Shown one piece after another: positions 7,580 to 30,993 of a stretch of 64,000 bases of DNA (position 1 is the first letter of the stretch; each line of letters begins with the position of its first letter). The stretch covers positions 3,796,001 to 3,860,000 of the forward strand of contig NZ_CP047029.1 of the NCBI RefSeq assembly GCF_009796805.1, in the 5' to 3' direction. A program made the position numbers and the translations under genes. The notes beneath the pieces were generated by a model. That model saw only the letters and a program-made list of their open reading frames with translations. It was not told the DNA's origin and searched no databases. The DNA comes from Algibacter sp. L1A34 (lineage in GTDB: Bacteria; Bacteroidota; Bacteroidia; Flavobacteriales; Flavobacteriaceae).

Positions 7580-8479
7580 ATGTGGATGTATTTAGGGCTT
7601 TTAGCCGCGTTATTTTTAGGGTTACATAACTTATGTAAAAAACATGCCGTACAAGGCAATGAAGTCTTTCCTGTGCTTTTAGGCACGGTAAGCTCTGGAT
7701 TTATATTTGTTTTACCTTTTTACTTAATTTCGGTATATAATCCAGAATATGCCAAGGAAATTGGTTTTCTTATCACGAAAATCTCATGGACTATTCATGG
7801 TTTTATTTTTATAAAATCGGCTATCATGGCATGTTCTTGGGTACTAGCTTATCAGGCCTTAAAGCATTTACCTATTACTATTGTAACACCAATTAGATCG
7901 GCAGGACCATTCTTTACTTTTATTGGCGCGATTCTTATTTATCAAGAACGCCCAAACGCTTTGCAATGGGTTGGTTTTTTTCTTATTATATTTTCAGTGT
8001 TATTATATTCAAAAATAGGAAAGAAAGAAGGTATTAACTTTAGAAGCAATAAATGGATTTTCGCTATAATCGCTGCCACATTTCTAGGCGCTTCTAGTGG
8101 CTTGTACGACAAATTCTTGATCCAGAGTTTACATCTAAATCCGCAAACCTTAATCTTTTGGTTTTGCTTTTATGTCATTCTTATTTTACTTGTTATTTTA
8201 TCTATTACATGGTTTCCTTATGCCGAAAAACGAAGAGCCTTTAAATTTCGTTGGTCTATTCCTGCAGTTGGAATTTTACTCCAAGCCGCAGATTATTTCT
8301 ACTTTAAAGCGCTTCAAGATCCCGATGCATTAATTATGTTACTTTCTGCTATAAAAAGAAGTCAGATTTTAATAGCTGTGGTTGTGGGCGGACTTATATT
8401 TAAGGAGCAAAACAAACGAAAAAAACTGGTTCCACTTGCTGGTATTCTATTAGGTGTGTTTTTTATTTTATACTCTTAA
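7580..8479 (+). CDS. EamA family (DMT superfamily) transporter
   Basis: A 299-residue membrane protein made of two EamA repeats, about ten predicted helices in total. It has the typical short-loop architecture and the helix-end motif PLAGILLGV at the C-terminus. Family members move metabolites such as amino acids or nucleotides out of or into the cell; the substrate here is unknown. The start at 7580 (MWMYLGLLAALFLG) is supported by conservation of leader and start in the decayed duplicate at 5123-5241. It is a single-gene unit on the plus strand. Confidence 0.88.
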   Translation: MWMYLGLLAALFLGLHNLCKKHAVQGNEVFPVLLGTVSSGFIFVLPFYLISVYNPEYAKEIGFLITKISWTIHGFIFIKSAIMACSWVLAYQALKHLPITIVTPIRSAGPFFTFIGAILIYQERPNALQWVGFFLIIFSVLLYSKIGKKEGINFRSNKWIFAIIAATFLGASSGLYDKFLIQSLHLNPQTLIFWFCFYVILILLVILSITWFPYAEKRRAFKFRWSIPAVGILLQAADYFYFKALQDPDALIMLLSAIKRSQILIAVVVGGLIFKEQNKRKKLVPLAGILLGVFFILYS

Positions 8480-8580
8480 ACCCTTGTTTTTTATTGAGTT
8501 CTCGTAGCTCTATTGTTAACATAACACCTTCTCTATTCCTTGATTGTTTAGTTGAATAATAAATATTTGTTAAAAAAAAG

Positions 8581-8594
8581 AATGAACGTTCATT
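8581..8594. promoter_or_regulatory. TetR-type operator, perfect 14-bp palindrome
   Basis: AATGAACGTTCATT is an exact palindrome, extended imperfectly on both sides by A and T runs. It lies 7 bp upstream of the candidate -7 element TATATTTG (8602-8609), so a bound repressor would cover the -33 region. The operon downstream encodes its own TetR regulator (8996-9580). Palindromes of this length and the core GAACGTTC are typical for TetR family sites; autoregulation is inferred. Confidence 0.75.
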
Positions 8595-8601
8595 TTTTAT
8601 A

Positions 8602-8609
8602 TATATTTG
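8602..8609 (+). promoter_or_regulatory. Candidate -7 promoter element of the TetR operon
   Basis: TATATTTG matches the Bacteroidota -7 consensus TAnnTTTG, 18 bp before the ATG at 8628. No good TTG was found at the usual -33 spacing. The transcript leader would be very short. Confidence 0.55.
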
Positions 8610-8627
8610 TACTCTCAAAACGAATAA

Positions 8628-8996
8628 ATGAAACATTTTTGGAATATTTTACGAATACTACTAGCCATATTTATGATATATGCAGGAGCTCAACATTTTA
8701 TAAAAGCAGATTTTTTTAATCCTTTTGTTCCCGACTTTATGGTATATAAAACCTTTATTATTTATGCATCAGGATTTGTAGAAGTTATTCTTGGTATGCT
8801 GTTACTTATACCAAAATATAAATATACAGCTGCCACCGGAATATTAGTTTTAATGGTATGCTTTCTGCCCATACATATATGGGATGTGTTTTCTAATACG
8901 CCAGCAATTGGAAGTCACAAAGCAGCATTAATACGATTACCAATACAGTTTATCTTAATAGCACTGGCATATAAATTTTCAAAAATTAAGAACTAA
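8628..8996 (+). CDS. DoxX-like small membrane protein
   Basis: A 122-residue protein with four membrane helices. It has DoxX-type features, such as the early motif IYAGAQHFIKADFF and GFVEVILGMLLLIPKY in the second helix pair. DoxX-like proteins are linked to oxidative-stress and thiol-related functions, but their exact role is not settled. It is the first gene of the TetR-controlled operon. Its stop codon overlaps the next ATG by one base (TAATG), indicating translational coupling. Confidence 0.75.
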   Translation: MKHFWNILRILLAIFMIYAGAQHFIKADFFNPFVPDFMVYKTFIIYASGFVEVILGMLLLIPKYKYTAATGILVLMVCFLPIHIWDVFSNTPAIGSHKAALIRLPIQFILIALAYKFSKIKN

Positions 8997-9580
8997 TGGC
9001 TAAACTTCAAAAAAGCATAGATAAGCGTAATGCACTTATAAAAGCTACAATAGAGCTTGTAAACAACGATGGTTTCCATGCTACACCTATGAGTAAAATA
9101 GCTAAAATGGCAAAGGTATCGCCTGCTACTATTTATCTATATTTTGAAAACAAGCAGGATTTAGTAAACCAAACCTATGTAGACGTTAAAGCAGAATATA
9201 CCAAATATGCATTTGAAACTTATGATGAAAGTATGCCTGTTGAAGCTGGTTTCGAATTAATATGGAAGCGCATAGCCGATTTTAAACTAAAAGAGTGCGA
9301 ACACGCAATGTTTTTAGCACAATGTGATAATACACCCATGATTGATGAAACAAGCAGACAGGAAGGTATTAAACACTTACAGCCTCTACTCGACCTTTGG
9401 GAACGCGGTAGAAAGGAAGGCGTTATAAAACCACTATCAGATTATCTTTTATATGCCTATGCTATAAATCCGTTATCATTTTTAATGATGACTCAAAAAC
9501 GTGGTGCATTTCAATTAAATAAAACACATTTAGAAGAGGCTTATCAATCGGCTTGGAACAGTATAAAATTTTGTAAATAG
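8996..9580 (+). CDS. TetR/AcrR family transcriptional regulator
   Basis: A 194-residue regulator. The N-terminal helix-turn-helix lies at about residues 8-53 and reads ALIKATIELVNNDGFHATPMSK... with the recognition part VSPATIYLYFENKQDL. The C-terminal ligand-binding half resembles no drug regulator that I can name. It is second in an operon of redox enzymes, with a perfect palindrome in the promoter at 8581-8594, so it most likely represses its own operon and is released by an electrophile or aldehyde. The start is set by overlap with the preceding stop. Confidence 0.9.
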   Translation: MAKLQKSIDKRNALIKATIELVNNDGFHATPMSKIAKMAKVSPATIYLYFENKQDLVNQTYVDVKAEYTKYAFETYDESMPVEAGFELIWKRIADFKLKECEHAMFLAQCDNTPMIDETSRQEGIKHLQPLLDLWERGRKEGVIKPLSDYLLYAYAINPLSFLMMTQKRGAFQLNKTHLEEAYQSAWNSIKFCK

Positions 9581-25569: not shown

Positions 25570-25696
25570 GTATTATTTAATTATTGCTAATGTTTAGCAA
25601 TGAGGATTTTCCGAAGGAAAATCAGAAGCTAGCAAACAAAGCAACTAACTTTGGTTTAGCTAAAAATAGCAATTTTTCATATACTATGTTAAGCAC
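25570..25696. repeat. attC-like repeat A, degenerate at one end
   Basis: It shares the core of the family: inner hairpin GATTTTCC-GAA-GGAAAATC (25604-25622), then GCTAGCAAACAAAGCAAC, and a right end ATACTATGTTAAGCAC. The left arm is not complementary to the right end as in the other copies; a different small hairpin, ATTGCTAA-TGT-TTAGCAAT (25583-25601), is there instead. It lies at the downstream end of the array, next to the fucosidase start, and may be a worn boundary site. Confidence 0.7.
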
Positions 25697-25703
25697 TGGC
25701 TTT

Positions 25704-25979
25704 TTATAGTTTTTTTTGTCTCAAATTATATAGATCAATAAATTTGTGTAATTCATCTTCCATGTCGGCAGTAGGAAAGTATTTTCCCATTTCAGTATCG
25801 AATTCTACCCATTTTTCTAAACCAGCATCCTTGGCGAAGGAAAATATTTTTTGTTCGAAATTTTCAGACTTTTTTGAAATATTATCATCTATTGTTTTAT
25901 GGCTGTTTAGTATCCAATCTCCACAATAGCCTATAATAAGTAGCGTTTTATATTCCTCTTTTGTTAATTCTATTTTCAT
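25704..25979 (-). CDS. Hypothetical protein, second gene of a two-gene cassette
   Basis: A 91-residue acidic soluble protein from the ATG at 25979 (MKIELTKEEYKTLLII). A TTG four codons upstream would overlap the preceding gene. It contains the segment YCGDWILNSHK and many acidic residues toward the C-terminus. I do not recognise the family. It follows the gene at 25984-26238 by 4 bp, so the two are likely translated together, and both lie between attC-like repeats A and B. Confidence 0.6.
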   Translation of the reverse strand: MKIELTKEEYKTLLIIGYCGDWILNSHKTIDDNISKKSENFEQKIFSFAKDAGLEKWVEFDTEMGKYFPTADMEDELHKFIDLYNLRQKKL

Positions 25980-25983
25980 AATT

Positions 25984-26238
25984 TTATTCAAATGGCTCTT
26001 TTGGGAGATTTTTTAAATTTTTTATATATCTGTCATTATCAAATGGTTTACTCATTTTAATAATCTCAAACAATTCTACAGCTACACACTGTCCTATCAT
26101 TTGTCGCGTTTGAAAGTCATTATATCCAGTATTTGTCAATTGGTTATATATGATTTTTGTTTCCGGAGGATCATTATTTTCCAGTTGATTTTTTACTATT
26201 TCTGATATCTGCTCTCTTAATATTTCATTTTCTTTCAT
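25984..26238 (-). CDS. Hypothetical protein, first gene of a two-gene cassette
   Basis: An 84-residue protein from the ATG at 26238 (MKENEILREQ). It is predicted to be helical and soluble, with the stretch NNDPPETKIIYNQL and a C-terminal FDNDRYIKNLKNLPKEP. The pattern is reminiscent of small conserved bacterial proteins without known function, but I cannot name a family. It starts about 25 bp after the boundary of repeat B, as expected for the first gene in a cassette. Confidence 0.6.
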   Translation of the reverse strand: MKENEILREQISEIVKNQLENNDPPETKIIYNQLTNTGYNDFQTRQMIGQCVAVELFEIIKMSKPFDNDRYIKNLKNLPKEPFE

Positions 26239-26263
26239 GTTCAAACGGTTTTCTTGCTTGTGC

Positions 26264-26396
26264 CTAACGTTTATGTATAAAAATATTGCCGGTTTGTATG
26301 CGAGGATTTCCCGAAAGAAAATCAGAAGCTAGCAAACAAAGCAACTAACATTGGTTAAGCTAAAAATAGCAATTTTTTATATACTGTGTTGTAAAA
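26264..26396. repeat. attC-like repeat B
   Basis: An imperfect palindrome of about 130 bp running from TAACGTTTATGTATAAAAATATTGC to GCAATTTTTTATATACTGTGTTGT. The outer arms are complementary, and the inner hairpin GATTTCCCGAAAGAAAATC is near 26303-26322. It separates the two-gene cassette (25704-26238) from the gene at 26416-26922. Confidence 0.75.
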
Positions 26397-26415
26397 CGTT
26401 TTTAATCCAAAGCAA

Positions 26416-26922
26416 TTATTCCTGATATCTTTCATTTTTTGGTAAAGTCCATATGTTGAGAACTCTGCTTTTAAGTCCATTTGCACTATCTGGCTCAACA
26501 ATTTCTATCTCCGTAATACAAATTAATGCTATGTTATATTTTTCGCTTTCTAATAAATAGCCATCAATATAGATTTTTCCTTTTTTTTTCAATCCGAAAA
26601 ATTGATTCAATTCTGATTGATTTTTGCTTTCTGGAATTTTTTTTAAATCCACAAATAATATTCCTTGTTCGGTGAGATTATAATAGTCAATCAGTTCTTT
26701 ATTCGGAACCTCTTTTAATATTGACATTTCATTGATTTTAGATTTTATCTCATCCTCTGAAGTTCCCAAACTTTTTATTAAATATTCATTTCCAATAATA
26801 TTTTGATTGAAAATGAAAGATGGTTTTTGAGTTTTTGCTTGTGGTAGTTTTATATAATCTTCCTGAGAAAAAATGTTTATTGAAACTAATAGCATCAAAA
26901 TTAATATCAGTATTTTTCGCAT
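26416..26922 (-). CDS. Hypothetical exported protein, cassette gene
   Basis: A 168-residue protein with a clear signal peptide (MRKILILILMLLVSINIFSQ) and a mature part of mixed strand character without recognisable motifs. It occupies one repeat-bounded unit whose ends are the inverted pair GTTGTAAAA (26388-26396) and TTTTACAAC (26933-26941). The start codon is 15 bp from repeat C, so there is little space for a private promoter. Confidence 0.65.
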   Translation of the reverse strand: MRKILILILMLLVSINIFSQEDYIKLPQAKTQKPSFIFNQNIIGNEYLIKSLGTSEDEIKSKINEMSILKEVPNKELIDYYNLTEQGILFVDLKKIPESKNQSELNQFFGLKKKGKIYIDGYLLESEKYNIALICITEIEIVEPDSANGLKSRVLNIWTLPKNERYQE

Positions 26923-26936
26923 TTCTTAAATATTTT

Positions 26937-27125
26937 ACAACGTCTAGGCTATGGTTAGTACGGGAATTAAAAGTATTGAACTTTCAATTAAGCACTTAGC
27001 CAAATTTTTTTATTTTTTTTATCTTTTTTGTACTAAAGCCAAATCAAAAGATTTGGCGGACTTTACTGATAAGTCGGGTTTATACCTTAAAGACTAAAAC
27101 CCGTATTAATTATAGCCATTGTTGT
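26937..27125. repeat. attC-like repeat C, different body, same ends
   Basis: It has the terminal pair ACAAC...GTTGT of the other sites, but its internal sequence is unrelated. The outer arms ACAACGTCTAGGCTATGG... and ...TATAGCCATTGTTGT are complementary over about 25 bp with bulges, ending inside at GTACGGG/CCCGTA. An inner perfect hairpin GCCAAATC-AAAA-GATTTGGC is at 27038-27057. Same architecture with different sequence is how integron attC sites vary. Confidence 0.7.
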
Positions 27126-27133
27126 ACATAGTT

Positions 27134-28363
27134 TTATTCGAATATGTGTTTCCAAATCTTCCCTCTATGTCCTGTAATAAACCCAGTATTATTGTAAAAA
27201 TCGATATTTGTACTATACTCGAAATCTCTAAAACTTAATTTGTTTATCCAAGTAGTTCCTCCGTCATAAGTTTCAAAAACAACATCGTTATTTTGCCATA
27301 TACTTATAGTTTCTGTTATTCCAATTCCTTTACTTTTATTAATAAAATGAAAATCACCTATAAACTGATTACCACTTTTTTCTTCCCAATTACCACTTGT
27401 TATATTGTTTTTAAAATAAACATTTCCTTGATATGACATATACGCTTGTGATTCTTCAATTAGCTGTACATTCGAAATTCCAGCATTACTAGCAGTATCG
27501 GTTTCAAGAATGGTATAGCTGAATATATTATTTATTCCTTGTAAAAGAACAGATTCTCCGCTAGAGTTTACACCAGAGGCAATTAAATTGTTATTATATA
27601 CACTAAAACTGTTAAAATAAAAATCATCCCCAGCTGGACCAGTTGAAAAATTATAAATTAAATCAAAATTACTATTATCATTTGTGTGGTATATTTCTCC
27701 TGATTTACTCACTAAATAGCCATTCGTTGGAGTGCTAAAATGCATGCCAAGTATTTCTGATTCAGAATAACCCCTGTCGAATATTTGATTAAAACTAGTA
27801 CCTCCATCATTTGTGTGATAAAGAATAAAATGGAAATTATCCTTAATTCCAATCCAACCTTCATTTTCATCAATAAAAAAAATGTTTTTCCCTACAAAAG
27901 AACCAAAATCTTTTAGTGCGTGCCAATTATATCCACCATCAGTTGTTTTGTACAATTGCGAACCTACGATTATATAAACGATTTTCTCATTAATCATTTT
28001 TATCCCCCAAATAGTCTCATAGGGGAAATTATAATTTAATGGGAAAGTCCCAATAAGTTTCATAGGAGTTGAATCTATTATCTGATAATCTCCATAAGTT
28101 ATTAAATTGAAATCCTCATTGTAAAGTATAGGCACAATAACTTTCATTTCTTCCGGACTTATAAAAAAAGGCTCTGCTTTTGTACCGCTGAATGAAAAAT
28201 GTGAAATTATGTCTAAATTTTTACCTTTTACAGTTATTGTATCTCCAATTCTTACTTTATTTTGATTGATTTCTATTTCTGTCTTATCAATTGTCAGTTC
28301 ATGTTTTGAACATGAAAAGAAAATAAAAGTAAAAGCAAAGATATATTTAAAAGTGAATTTCAT
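27134..28363 (-). CDS. Lipoprotein with IPT/TIG and Ycf48/BNR-like beta-propeller repeats
   Basis: A protein of about 409 residues from ATG 28363; an upstream ATG at 28372 would add three residues. A lipoprotein signal (FAFTFIFFSC) is followed by an IPT/TIG-like beta domain (~25-100, VRIGDTITVKGKNLD). Repeated propeller blades follow with the motif TTDGGYNW, HTNDGGTSF and TYDGGTTW, typical of Ycf48/BNR-like sensors or binding proteins. It is probably surface- or periplasm-facing. It is a cassette gene between repeats C and D. An IS30-type element is inserted about 18 bp upstream of its start and may affect its expression. Confidence 0.75.
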   Translation of the reverse strand: MKFTFKYIFAFTFIFFSCSKHELTIDKTEIEINQNKVRIGDTITVKGKNLDIISHFSFSGTKAEPFFISPEEMKVIVPILYNEDFNLITYGDYQIIDSTPMKLIGTFPLNYNFPYETIWGIKMINEKIVYIIVGSQLYKTTDGGYNWHALKDFGSFVGKNIFFIDENEGWIGIKDNFHFILYHTNDGGTSFNQIFDRGYSESEILGMHFSTPTNGYLVSKSGEIYHTNDNSNFDLIYNFSTGPAGDDFYFNSFSVYNNNLIASGVNSSGESVLLQGINNIFSYTILETDTASNAGISNVQLIEESQAYMSYQGNVYFKNNITSGNWEEKSGNQFIGDFHFINKSKGIGITETISIWQNNDVVFETYDGGTTWINKLSFRDFEYSTNIDFYNNTGFITGHRGKIWKHIFE

Positions 28364-28381
28364 AGGCTGCATTCAAGGTTC

Positions 28382-29454
28382 TAACGCAACAAACGTTGCT
28401 TTTTTTTAGTGAGTCTAAGCTACAAATTTCAGTTCATTTAGCATAATTTCTTTAGGGGTTTTAAAACCAATAATTTTACGTGGTCTATTGTTTAGTTTTT
28501 CTTGAATTTCTGCTAACCTTTTTTTATCAATTAGGTTAAAGTCTGTTCCTTTTGGAAGGTATCTTCTAATGAGTCCATTTGTGTTTTCATTAGTACCTCT
28601 TTCCCAAGAAGAGTATGGGTGTGCAAAGTAGATTTTCATGCCTGTTTTTTTAGTTATTTGTTGATGTTTAGCCATTTCAATTCCGTTGTCATAAGTCATT
28701 GTTTTCTTGAATATCGGGTTAAGTTTATTTAAATATTTTGAGAACATTTTAGCTACTTCTTTTGAGTTTCTAGCTTTTAATTTAATAATTAAAGTATATC
28801 TAGATTTACGTTCAACAATAGTTCCAATAGCAGATTTATGATCTTTCCCAATCATTAAATCACCTTCCCAATGTCCAATTTCTTGTCTTAGCTCAATATG
28901 CTTAGGCCTATTGTCAATACTGACTTGATTGATTATTTTACTTCCTGTACCTCGTCTTTTTTTAGAAGGCCTACGTCTTGTTTTTTTATGAACCAGTAGT
29001 TTGATGAGTTTTTTGTTTAAGGAAGCCTGAGGGCGTGTGTAAATATACCTGTAAATGGATTCGTGAGAAATAGACATAATAGTATCGTTAGGATATTCTT
29101 CTTTTAATCTTCCAGAAATTTGCTCAGGAGTCCATTCGGATAAAAGGCCTTTATAGACATAGAATCGAAGCCTATTATGAATAGATATTTTATCTGTATT
29201 TCTCTTGTTTAAATAATCATCTTTAGCGTACCAATGAGCAAGTTCAGCAGCGTATTTATCTCTATCAGATTCACCCATTTATTAATTTCTCTAGTGATTG
29301 TAGAACGCGCTCTTTTTAACGTTTTTGAGATATAAGCTTTGGACTTATTTTCGTTTAAAAGAGTCTCAATTTGAATTCTTTCTTTAAGGGTAAGGCGACC
29401 ATTTTTTTTACGTACCATAATAACAAATCTATTAATTTAGATTTGTTGCGTTAA
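28382..29454 (-). mobile_element. IS30 family insertion sequence
   Basis: An element of about 1,073 bp. The terminal inverted repeats are TAACGCAACAAA (28382-28393) and TTTGTTGCGTTA (29442-29453). It is flanked by a candidate 4-bp target duplication GTTC (28378-28381 and 29455-29458); IS30 members usually make 2-4 bp duplications. The single transposase gene is split by a frameshift. It sits inside a cassette of the repeat array, between the cassette's 5' boundary and the lipoprotein gene. Confidence 0.85.
28415..29418 (-). pseudogene. IS30 family transposase, frameshifted
   Basis: The reading frame starts at ATG 29418 (MVRKKNGRLTLKERIQIE), which encodes the N-terminal helix-turn-helix that binds the terminal repeats. 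It leaves frame near REINKW, around 29278. The rest continues in another frame from MGESDRDKYAAELAHWY to the stop at 28415. The DDE core is intact: HWEGDLMIG, MTYDNGIE and ERGTNENTNGLIRRYLP. Adding one A to the AAA run at the junction would restore an unbroken protein of about 335 residues. A one-base loss is therefore the simplest explanation, and the copy is probably not self-mobile. Confidence 0.85.
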
Positions 29455-29489
29455 GTTCTTGAGTACAGCTAGGTTTGTTTAAATTATGT

Positions 29490-29620
29490 ACAACGTTTAT
29501 GTGTAAGGAACGTTGCGTGTTTGAGTGCGAGGATTTTCCGAAGGAAAATCAGATGCTAGCAAACAAAGCAACGACCAAACGGCTTAACTAAAATAAGCAA
29601 TGTTTTTTACACGGTGTTGT
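29490..29620. repeat. attC-like repeat D
   Basis: A 131-bp imperfect palindrome from ACAACGTTTATGTGTAAGGAACGTTGC to GCAATGTTTTTTACACGGTGTTGT. The inner perfect hairpin GATTTTCC-GAA-GGAAAATC is at 29532-29550. It separates the cassette carrying the insertion sequence from the one at 29632-29982. Confidence 0.75.
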
Positions 29621-29631
29621 ACTGCGTTTTT

Positions 29632-29982
29632 TTATTCCGTTTTCAATTCATTCTTTTTTATTTCTAATCTTTCGGGATATTCACCGTCAAAGTAGGAAAC
29701 AAACTTGTCAGTCAAAATTGCTTTATTTCCCATTTTAGGAATTGAGTCCGAATATTTAAAATATAACGTGTCATTTTTTAATTCCACAGTTCCAGCATAT
29801 ATATCTCCTTTGCGTTCCAATCCGCGAGATTCAAATTCAAACGTTTTGTTTGGATATATTCTTAAATAATTCCAACCTAAAGGAGCTTCTCGGTCAGCCA
29901 AAAGAAGCGTTGCTTTTTTTTCAGTCCGATTGCATGAAGTCAGAGTTAAAATCAGAGTTAATATTATAATTGTGTGTTTCAT
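29632..29982 (-). CDS. Small hypothetical lipoprotein, cassette gene
   Basis: A 116-residue protein from ATG 29982 (MKHTIIILTLILTLTSC), with a textbook lipobox LTSC. The mature part is about 95 residues and predicted to be mostly beta strand; no family is recognised. The unit is bounded by GTTGTACTGC (29616-29625) and its exact complement GCAGTACAAC (29991-30000). A TTG at 29988 is a possible but less likely start. Confidence 0.65.
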   Translation of the reverse strand: MKHTIIILTLILTLTSCNRTEKKATLLLADREAPLGWNYLRIYPNKTFEFESRGLERKGDIYAGTVELKNDTLYFKYSDSIPKMGNKAILTDKFVSYFDGEYPERLEIKKNELKTE

Positions 29983-29995
29983 TCTCAAATGCAGT

Positions 29996-30123
29996 ACAAC
30001 GTTTATTTATAAGAATAGTTGCGGTTTTGTGTGTTAGGATTTTCCGAAGGAAAATCAGACGTAACAAAAGGGCAACGACCTTTGATTAAGCCTAAAATAG
30101 CAATTATTTTTATACTGTGTTGG
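29996..30123. repeat. attC-like repeat E
   Basis: A 128-bp imperfect palindrome from ACAACGTTTATTTATAAGAATAGTTGC to GCAATTATTTTTATACTGTGTTGG. The inner perfect hairpin GATTTTCC-GAA-GGAAAATC is near 30038-30056. The central part differs slightly from B and D (GTAACAAAAGGGCAACGACC). Confidence 0.75.
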
Positions 30124-30133
30124 CAATAGTATT

Positions 30134-30679
30134 TTATTCCATAATGTTTATTTTTCCAGAGTTCAAATACTTTTTTCCAAAAACACCTTTCTGAAAATCT
30201 ATCTTTATTGTGTCTCCTTCTTTTATTTTATTCAGGTCAGATTCCGCAAACTTTTTTTCAGTTCTTTCAAAATATTGGTCTTCTAATGACCTAATTCCGA
30301 CTTCTCCATTTTTCATAACGTAAGTGATTTCAAAACGTTCGGTCACGGTATCAGTACTACTCATTCGGTTTATAAATAATCCAGAAGCAATTATGATGCT
30401 TTGAATCCAGATAAAATATACAACTCCCATAAATACAGAAAAAGCGAAAGTCTTCATTATTCTAAGCGTTATGTCATTTTCGATTGATAAAAACTTGTAA
30501 AAAACGAAAACAGAAATTAGAAATACAATTCCGATAACGATTAGCGTATCAGTCTGCTCAAAGTCAATCAAATCTCTTTCTAAATAGAAATTATATTGGT
30601 AAGGAACAAGAATTTTATAGATGAGAAGGAAAATTCCAATCCCAACTAGCCATTTCCAATTTCGCTTGAGTCTTTCCAT
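30134..30679 (-). CDS. Hypothetical membrane protein, cassette gene
   Basis: A 181-residue protein with three hydrophobic helices in its first 110 residues (for example LVGIGIFLLIYKILV). A soluble C-terminal part of small beta-domain character follows (EGDTIKIDFQKGVFGKKYL). No family is recognised. It is the first unit in the array by direction of transcription and is bounded by GTTGGCAATA (30119-30128) and its exact complement TATTGCCAAC (30682-30691). Confidence 0.65.
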   Translation of the reverse strand: MERLKRNWKWLVGIGIFLLIYKILVPYQYNFYLERDLIDFEQTDTLIVIGIVFLISVFVFYKFLSIENDITLRIMKTFAFSVFMGVVYFIWIQSIIIASGLFINRMSSTDTVTERFEITYVMKNGEVGIRSLEDQYFERTEKKFAESDLNKIKEGDTIKIDFQKGVFGKKYLNSGKINIME

Positions 30680-30993
30680 ATTATTGCCAACAATTATATA
30701 TAGTTATATGTTAACTATATACTTATTATGTCTACTAATGTATAACTTTTACTTCAAAATTTTTATTACTTCTATGTTATTCTTTTCTAGATGATAATAG
30801 TTAATAATTCTTTTTAATTTAAAGCCATCGTTATTAAGCCAACTAATTCTGCTATAAACTTACAGAAGTATAAACTCAATACTTTACGGTTTTCCGTATT
30901 CAGCTAAAAAAAGTATAAAATTTTAAAATAAAACAAAAAAAAGACCAAGCTTCTCAGCTTGATCTTCTTTAATAATCTTTCAAATAATTGAAA
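30680..30993. other. Upstream boundary of the cassette array
   Basis: This 314-bp region includes the outer half-site TATTGCCAAC (30682-30691). I see no complete attC-like repeat, integrase gene or attI-like site here. The terminator of the neighbouring helicase lies at its right end. The rest is AT-rich and unassigned. Confidence 0.4.
30931..30964 (-). terminator. Rho-independent terminator after the DEFD helicase
   Basis: GACCAAGCT and AGCTTGATC make a 9-bp stem (one G-T pair) with a TCTC loop, followed on the minus strand by a run of Ts. It lies 30 bp after the helicase stop. Confidence 0.85.

Follow-up and report, generated by a model that had tools for sequence, protein, structure and literature searches.

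The cassette array of the window

The window analysed here comprises 64,000 nucleotides of the genome of Algibacter sp. L1A34 (contig NZ_CP047029.1, positions 3,796,001 to 3,860,000) and carries an array of five gene cassettes, each of which is bounded by inverted ends of its own and followed by a repeat of the attC type. The array begins at a site resembling the attI site of integrons and ends in a truncated repeat. Its parts, read from the head of the array, are the following:

30689..30719, minus strand: attI-like site at the array head, with palindromic arms, then TAATT, then GTT; an integrase gene is not adjoining
30119..30691, minus strand: body of cassette 1, GTTGGCAATA...TATTGCCAAC; open reading frame (ORF) 30134-30679
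29998..30121, minus strand: attC 1, AAC...GTT
29616..30000, minus strand: body of cassette 2, GTTGTACTGC...GCAGTACAAC; ORF 29632-29988 with a TTG start
29492..29618, minus strand: attC 2
27121..29494, minus strand: body of cassette 3, GTTGTACATA...TATGTACAAC; ORF 27134-28372 (TIG, PSII_BNR-like)
28382..29453, minus strand: insertion element within cassette 3, which we take to be IS30-like, with ends TAACGCAACAAA/TTTGTTGCGTTA and an rve-type transposase at 28415-29278
26939..27123, minus strand: attC 3, of a longer type (185 bp); used as a profile seed
26388..26941, minus strand: body of cassette 4, GTTGTAAAA...TTTTACAAC; ORF 26416-26922
26266..26390, minus strand: attC 4 (125 bp); used as a profile seed
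25688..26268, minus strand: body of cassette 5, GTTAGGCAC...GTGCTTAAC, with one G-T; short ORFs 25704-25991 and 25984-26244
25600..25690, minus strand: attC 5, truncated, at the array end; its match to an attC model built from one sequence covers only positions 2-91 of that model

The preliminary description of this DNA had proposed that each unit is bracketed by its own exact inverted termini, unique to that unit, which enclose one gene or gene pair and would come together in a circular cassette. All ten end coordinates of the five units proved exact. In cassette sense, which is the minus strand of the window, the head and tail of the five units pair over 10, 10, 10, 9 and 4 nt with GTT included, the fifth run being interrupted by one G-T, and the 20 foreign head-tail combinations in the window give contiguous pairing of 3-7 nt. 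The content of one gene or gene pair per unit also holds, with one gene plus the inserted element in 27121-29494 and two short ORFs in 25688-26268. The uniqueness of the termini stands in part: the pairs belong to their units, but units 2 and 3 share GTTGTAC, and unit 4 shares six letters with both. The ends of cassette 3 are still paired despite its internal insertion element (28382-29453). A scan of the window against Rfam gave no matches at gathering scores.

Pairing of cassette ends, attC architecture and cassette mobility

The repeat core between the units occurs in 43 copies in the same genome at up to 3 mismatches, and 84 attC-like sites were found in the stretches of this genome that were examined. 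The site search started from four hand-chosen seeds and was run as a repeated profile search over 52 sources, comprising 12 from the same genome and 40 around related integrases; it gave 251 sites in 45 of the 52 sources, all on a single strand within each source. With a unit defined as the stretch between two consecutive sites, 190 units were obtained (69 from the same genome and 121 from other genomes), and every unit found entered the pairing statistics, irrespective of run length. The mean run of paired bases beyond GTT between a unit's own ends was 5.28, and permutation of the tails lowered it to 1.05 (maximum 1.35 of 1000 permutations), which bears out the earlier expectation that own ends pair better than shuffled ones. 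Permutation within loci gave a mean of 1.82 (maximum 2.36 of 1000), and own-end runs beyond GTT reached at least 4 bases in 146 of the 190 units. A second set of 96 units from 80 loci of named genomes, treated in the same way, gave 5.67 for own ends and 0.94 for permuted ones (maximum 1.35 of 1000). The two flanks of one repeat are unpaired, with a mean run of 1.19 over the 251 sites.

Integrons carrying the standard integrase IntI, from the same phylum, served as a control, in which 30 units had a mean own-end run of 6.47 and a permuted value of 1.8. These units came from 5 of 20 loci around IntI genes by a looser site rule, under which the other 15 loci had zero or one site each and were dropped; a stricter canonical attC search in the same 20 loci found 2 sites and no units. 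According to passages in PMC2727003, self-pairing of the R'' and R' arms over 9-11 nt is true of most gene cassettes. As own-end pairing is also found in IntI integrons, both in the control and in that report, the pairing noticed in the window is a known signature of cassettes.

What follows on base-pair types, position 8, head letters, strand energies and ORFs is based on units with runs of 5 or more (220 units; 217 for energies, of which 126 remained after the removal of near-copies). The pairing spans seven bases past GTT, breaks at the eighth and then returns for three bases. The match fraction at the eighth base was 0.00 and 0.01 in the two analyses. In all 220 units the eighth head base is A; the base opposite is C in 194, G in 22, A in 3 and T in 1, so that this A is unpaired in 219; bases nine to eleven form several pair types (T-A, G-C, C-G and A-T). 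In the 30 IntI-integron units, in contrast, position 8 is paired in 0.63. The repeats contain AAC/GTT boundaries, outer arms, an unpaired spacer of 3 and 6-8 nt (about 2 and 6, by eye, in the IntI locus L135), an L stem in which compensatory changes are seen and a tip that varies, and this architecture is that of integron attC sites. The bottom strand is more stable than the top strand in 124 of 126 closed sites, and its mean energy is -30.3 kcal/mol in closed sites and -24.2 kcal/mol in linear sites. In 192 of 220 units the longest ORF beginning with ATG is on the same strand as the array. Complementary R''/R' arms with AAC/GTT ends thus lie inside each cassette, and the cassettes are co-oriented with all sites on one strand, as in integrons; pairing, covariation, boundaries and strandedness are established for these units.

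Identical units recur at distant places. Three units (749, 606 and 460 bp) are 100% identical between arrays of the same genome that lie about 1.5-1.8 Mb apart, with different flanks, which suggests mobility of the cassettes as whole units, as would be expected of an integron. In other genomes, copies of a unit recur within one array. Four identical 727-bp cassettes are present in one array of L078 (at 3867, 4594, 10817 and 12196, cassette sense). Two adjacent identical 512-bp cassettes lie in L020 at 8299-9323, with a third copy in L021, and the copies in L078 and in L020/L021 suggest recent duplication. Window cassette 1 has a relative in another genome (L219/L230, G195:C23:69313-69906) with 83% identity over 594 bp, the alignment of which begins exactly at GTT and stops shortly past AAC. 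Among homologous pairs with changed termini (L077/L095, L019/L018 and L065/L156), whose members were preselected for a run of at least 5, own-end pairing is kept in both members. In homologous cassettes (G195 L219/L230; L077/L095) the gene and the termini can be kept alongside an attC body of another kind, as if such bodies were exchangeable between cassettes. Window cassettes and attC sites have matches in 122 of 299 genomes of the family, nearly all of them, among the matches listed, in attC stretches. Phages and plasmids gave only relatives below 60% identity (49 and 258 records).

The linked integrase and attI-like sites

In the genome of strain L1A34, one array starts at a tyrosine recombinase of 375 amino acids (L019:8844-9971, minus strand), 1.35 Mb from the window, and another starts at a distant relative of 368 amino acids (L020:5027-6133, plus strand). 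The 375-residue integrase is present as a single close copy, the next relative in the genome having 43% identity over 254 residues, and its closest counterpart in a named genome is that of Algibacter lectus (94%). Related integrases were examined in named-genome loci, the best 80 of 122, with hosts including Algibacter, Winogradskyella, Lacinutrix, Aquimarina, Arenibacter and others, as well as Crocinitomicaceae and Cytophagales. In these 80 loci, 141 attC-like sites lie in 278 kb 3' of the integrase and 1 in 585 kb 5' of it, counts that are not fully independent of the site model as some of the genomes seem to be the same as its training genomes (e.g., L140 = G072); all 142 sites are on the integrase strand. 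Where the sequence 3' of the integrase extends for 2 kb or more (45 loci), a site was present in 37 loci and at least two sites in 26. Across 299 genomes of the family, with an integrase match taken at E 1e-60 and both genome searches assumed to have drawn the same 299 genomes, integrase and cassette/attC matches occur together in 81, the cassette/attC match alone in 41, the integrase alone in 59 and neither in 118 (Fisher p 2e-8, kinship ignored).

Directly 3' of the integrase stop codon a palindromic stretch is followed by the first GTT, as read by eye. Of the 42 named loci with sites, 34 have a head that matches the first tail and lies no more than 400 bp from the stop codon of the integrase (22 exact, 10 with one mismatch and 2 with two). 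By sequence, an attI-like site stands at the array head beside the integrase gene, as in integrons. A pattern for this site, composed after both sites were known and fitted to them, has exactly two matches in the 4.64-Mb genome, namely, the site behind the 375-residue integrase and window positions 30689-30719; the reversed pattern, used as a control, has none. Upstream of the window array, 68 bp match the stop codon and attI region of the integrase at 76%, with a weaker, AT-rich match of 142 bp at 63%, and it is possible that these stretches are a decayed integrase remnant at the attI-like site of the window.

The linked integrases form a family without the insertion of about 41 amino acids that is specific to IntI. 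The distance from box I to HxLRH is 91-92 residues in 41 of 42 alignment rows (the remaining row is truncated) and 133 residues in 32 of 32 IntI rows, with 91-98 in three Xer-like rows of the same genome; by motif alone the distance was measurable in 38 of the 42 linked-integrase rows and 9 of the 32 IntI rows. TIGR02249 scores the two array-heading integrases of the genome at 207 and 175 bits (cut-off 265), and XerA_Arch (NF040815) is above its cut-off for the L019 integrase and below it for that of L020. The closest solved chains by sequence are XerA and IntI4, the latter aligning as two pieces that flank a gap. In a tree whose root and long branches are uncertain and which held only three Xer-like rows, the 30 IntI rows form one clade (100/100) that excludes the linked integrases, and the array-bearing integrases do not form one group. 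The predicted structure of the integrase (mean pLDDT 81.6, pTM 0.49) has IntI (2a3v) and XerA as its nearest neighbours, with TM-scores of 0.4-0.6.

The linked integrase also contains an extra N-terminal domain of about 100 amino acids (residues 1-104, L138:8001-8312), for which no convincing Pfam family match was found. The nearest structural neighbours of its model include the damage-recognition domain of XPB and the HARP domain of SMARCAL1, a weak likeness (Foldseek E 0.2-0.4 only) for which Pfam and the PDB gave no support by sequence; it is offered as a lead. Beside the integrase, 77 of the 80 named loci contain a divergent gene for a zinc-finger-like protein with a median length of 126 amino acids and a CxxC...CxxxC motif, and the two such proteins scanned had no Pfam families above the cut-off.

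Interpretation and relation to known systems

The units are very probably cassettes of the integron type, most likely joined at GTT through one folded strand, with the linked insert-less integrase as the most likely catalyst and the window array, if still active, served in trans. Pairing within units, its absence across repeats, one-strand arrays and identical units at distant places would all follow if the cassettes are circular with joined complementary ends; the interpretation of the preliminary description, in which the ends of a circular cassette form one complementary site, is supported to this extent, and we infer the circle itself. Each cassette carries its own attC, with the first ~14 nt (GTT-N7-A-NNN) and the last ~14 nt (NNN-C-N7'-AAC) as outer arms, and these arms would pair in the excised circle or in a folded single strand to give the attC hairpin, in which the R arm is paired and is followed by the unpaired spacer (3 and 6-8 nt), the L stem and the variable tip. 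Since N7 differs between cassettes, an attC within the array would have mismatched outer arms and be complete only in the circle. Recombination would join cassettes at the GTT triplet, the partner site being either the attI that follows the integrase gene or another attC. A single folded strand would be the most likely route of exchange, given that N7 varies from cassette to cassette and that the partners have little in common past GTT; the small overlap between attI-like and attC sites in particular favours one-strand exchange, as in integrons. Position, strand and co-occurrence point to the linked Xer-like tyrosine recombinase, which lacks the IntI insertion, as the most likely catalyst, perhaps with the zinc-finger-like partner. 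If the window array is still active, it would depend on an enzyme acting in trans, for which the single close family homologue 1.35 Mb away is the likeliest candidate.

Several findings weigh against this interpretation. In 41 of the 190 units, 2 or fewer bases pair beyond GTT, and these are perhaps composite or decayed units. A site is lacking in eight of the 45 named loci whose 3' sequence reaches 2 kb. At E 1e-60, an integrase match is absent from 41 of the 122 cassette/attC-matching genomes and is present without a cassette/attC match in 59 genomes of the family. The homologue of cassette 1 in G195 has an attC body of another kind, so that attC and gene do not always travel together. Moreover, the linked integrase has no I2 helix region. 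Passages in PMC7790495 and PMC4792948 report that IntI needs the I2 helix on folded attC, and the IntI insertion is taken as defining or necessary in passages of PMC9668308 and PMC7790495; a passage in PMC8138268 describes it as essential though not fully conserved in its integron-like subgroup. An integrase without the I2 region implies either that a different recognition exists or that another enzyme acts.

In one alternative, the sites are ordinary double-stranded ones recombined by Xer-like two-strand exchange, with the hairpin arms serving synapsis or transcription termination, for example. The integrase indeed resembles XerA and lacks I2, and the attI palindrome seen by eye fits a double-stranded site. 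In the tyrosine recombinase family the overlap is usually 6-8 bp, however, and the stretch common to attI-like and attC sites extends too little past GTT for this. The arms also vary freely yet stay paired, which a purely double-stranded site would not need, and we consider two-strand exchange rather unlikely.

It is improbable that the array is an ordinary integron remnant, that is, a cluster of attC sites lacking an integron integrase (CALIN) whose cassettes owe their formation and movement to a standard IntI now lost or acting from elsewhere. The attC architecture and own-end pairing are common to IntI integrons, as the control and passages in PMC2727003 indicate. However, no IntI was above the cut-off in any of the 299 genomes of the family, in which up to 7 candidates per genome were scored among the matches listed and where non-detection is not proof of absence; the same model passes in 105 of 395 genomes of the phylum. 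In addition, an insert-less integrase stands at the array heads with an attI-like site of its own. An IntI elsewhere in the genome was rejected as the mover, none being above the cut-off in those 299 genomes. The window array is like a CALIN in that it has attC sites and no adjoining integrase, but it has kept an attI-like site similar to the one beside the insert-less integrase, a feature that does not follow from a cluster of attC sites as such.

A further proposal, in which the cassettes are moved by XerC/XerD of the host or by some other recombinase and the linked integrase is only carried along, would account for the 41 of 122 matching genomes in which no integrase match was found; it is highly improbable, as integrase, attI-like site and array are linked in position and strand, and the 81 genomes with both exceed chance expectation by the Fisher test given above, kinship again ignored. 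Chance or generic repeat palindromes unrelated to genes can be dismissed, since the permutation, within-locus and same-repeat controls are all contrary and whole units are identical across distant arrays; plain repeats are likewise ruled out by the permutation and same-repeat controls, which gave this result in both unit sets.

The arrays linked to the insert-less integrase share with chromosomal integrons the mostly single-gene, co-oriented cassettes, the AAC...GTT ends of attC, the R and L arms, the attI at the array head, own-end pairing (9-11 nt in passages of PMC2727003) and, as found here, the more stable bottom-strand hairpin. They differ in that the linked integrase is without the IntI insertion and has an extra N-terminal domain and a divergent partner gene, and in that the eighth head base is a fixed, unpaired A. 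The linked integrase is nearest to XerA_Arch by sequence, but unlike XerA, XerC and XerD it is encoded at the head of a cassette array, beside an attI-like site. The phage CTXphi, acting via XerCD, is a proposed analogy for an I2-less recombinase on a folded strand (passages in PMC4792948 and PMC7790495); that phage borrows the host Xer, whereas a dedicated linked integrase and many gene cassettes are present here.

As cassette end pairing is already known, the novelty is the platform, namely, cassette arrays linked to an insert-less integrase. It is conceivable, and proposed here tentatively, that these arrays are a second natural kind of integron, with an integrase that either lost the I2 helix or never possessed it, in which the hairpin might be read by the N-terminal domain and/or the zinc-finger-like partner, with the fixed A-C mismatch as a landmark. 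According to passages in PMC7790495, cassette capture requires the I2 helix, and this helix was the step that gave rise to integrons. Cassette arrays with I2-less integrases would show either that integrons can do without I2 or that recognition evolved in another form, and living systems would then allow the origin of single-strand recombination and of integrons to be tested. If true, a second kind of integron would be an intermediate or parallel solution of the kind sought by the "chicken-egg" question in passages of PMC4792948. Integrons have been reported from Bacteroidota (PMC8618304), and IntegronFinder 2.0 lists a single complete integron from Bacteroidetes proper, that of Salinibacter ruber, where the earlier study had only In0 elements (PMC9024848). 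Among the literature matches listed, with most subscription papers and all preprints outside the scope, no description of integrons or cassette arrays in Flavobacteriia was recognised. The arrays may also represent a large pool of mobile genes that searches based on the IntI domain should miss.

The divergent zinc-finger-like genes of the two array-heading integrases in strain L1A34 lie at the following positions:

L019, 10063-10443, plus strand: divergent zinc-finger-like gene
L020, 4521-4871, minus strand: divergent zinc-finger-like gene

Among the matches listed, this gene lies 83-215 bp upstream of the integrase (70 loci), and in a 30-locus alignment the stretch between the two genes contains, by eye, a conserved motif of three similar hexamers about 11 bp apart.

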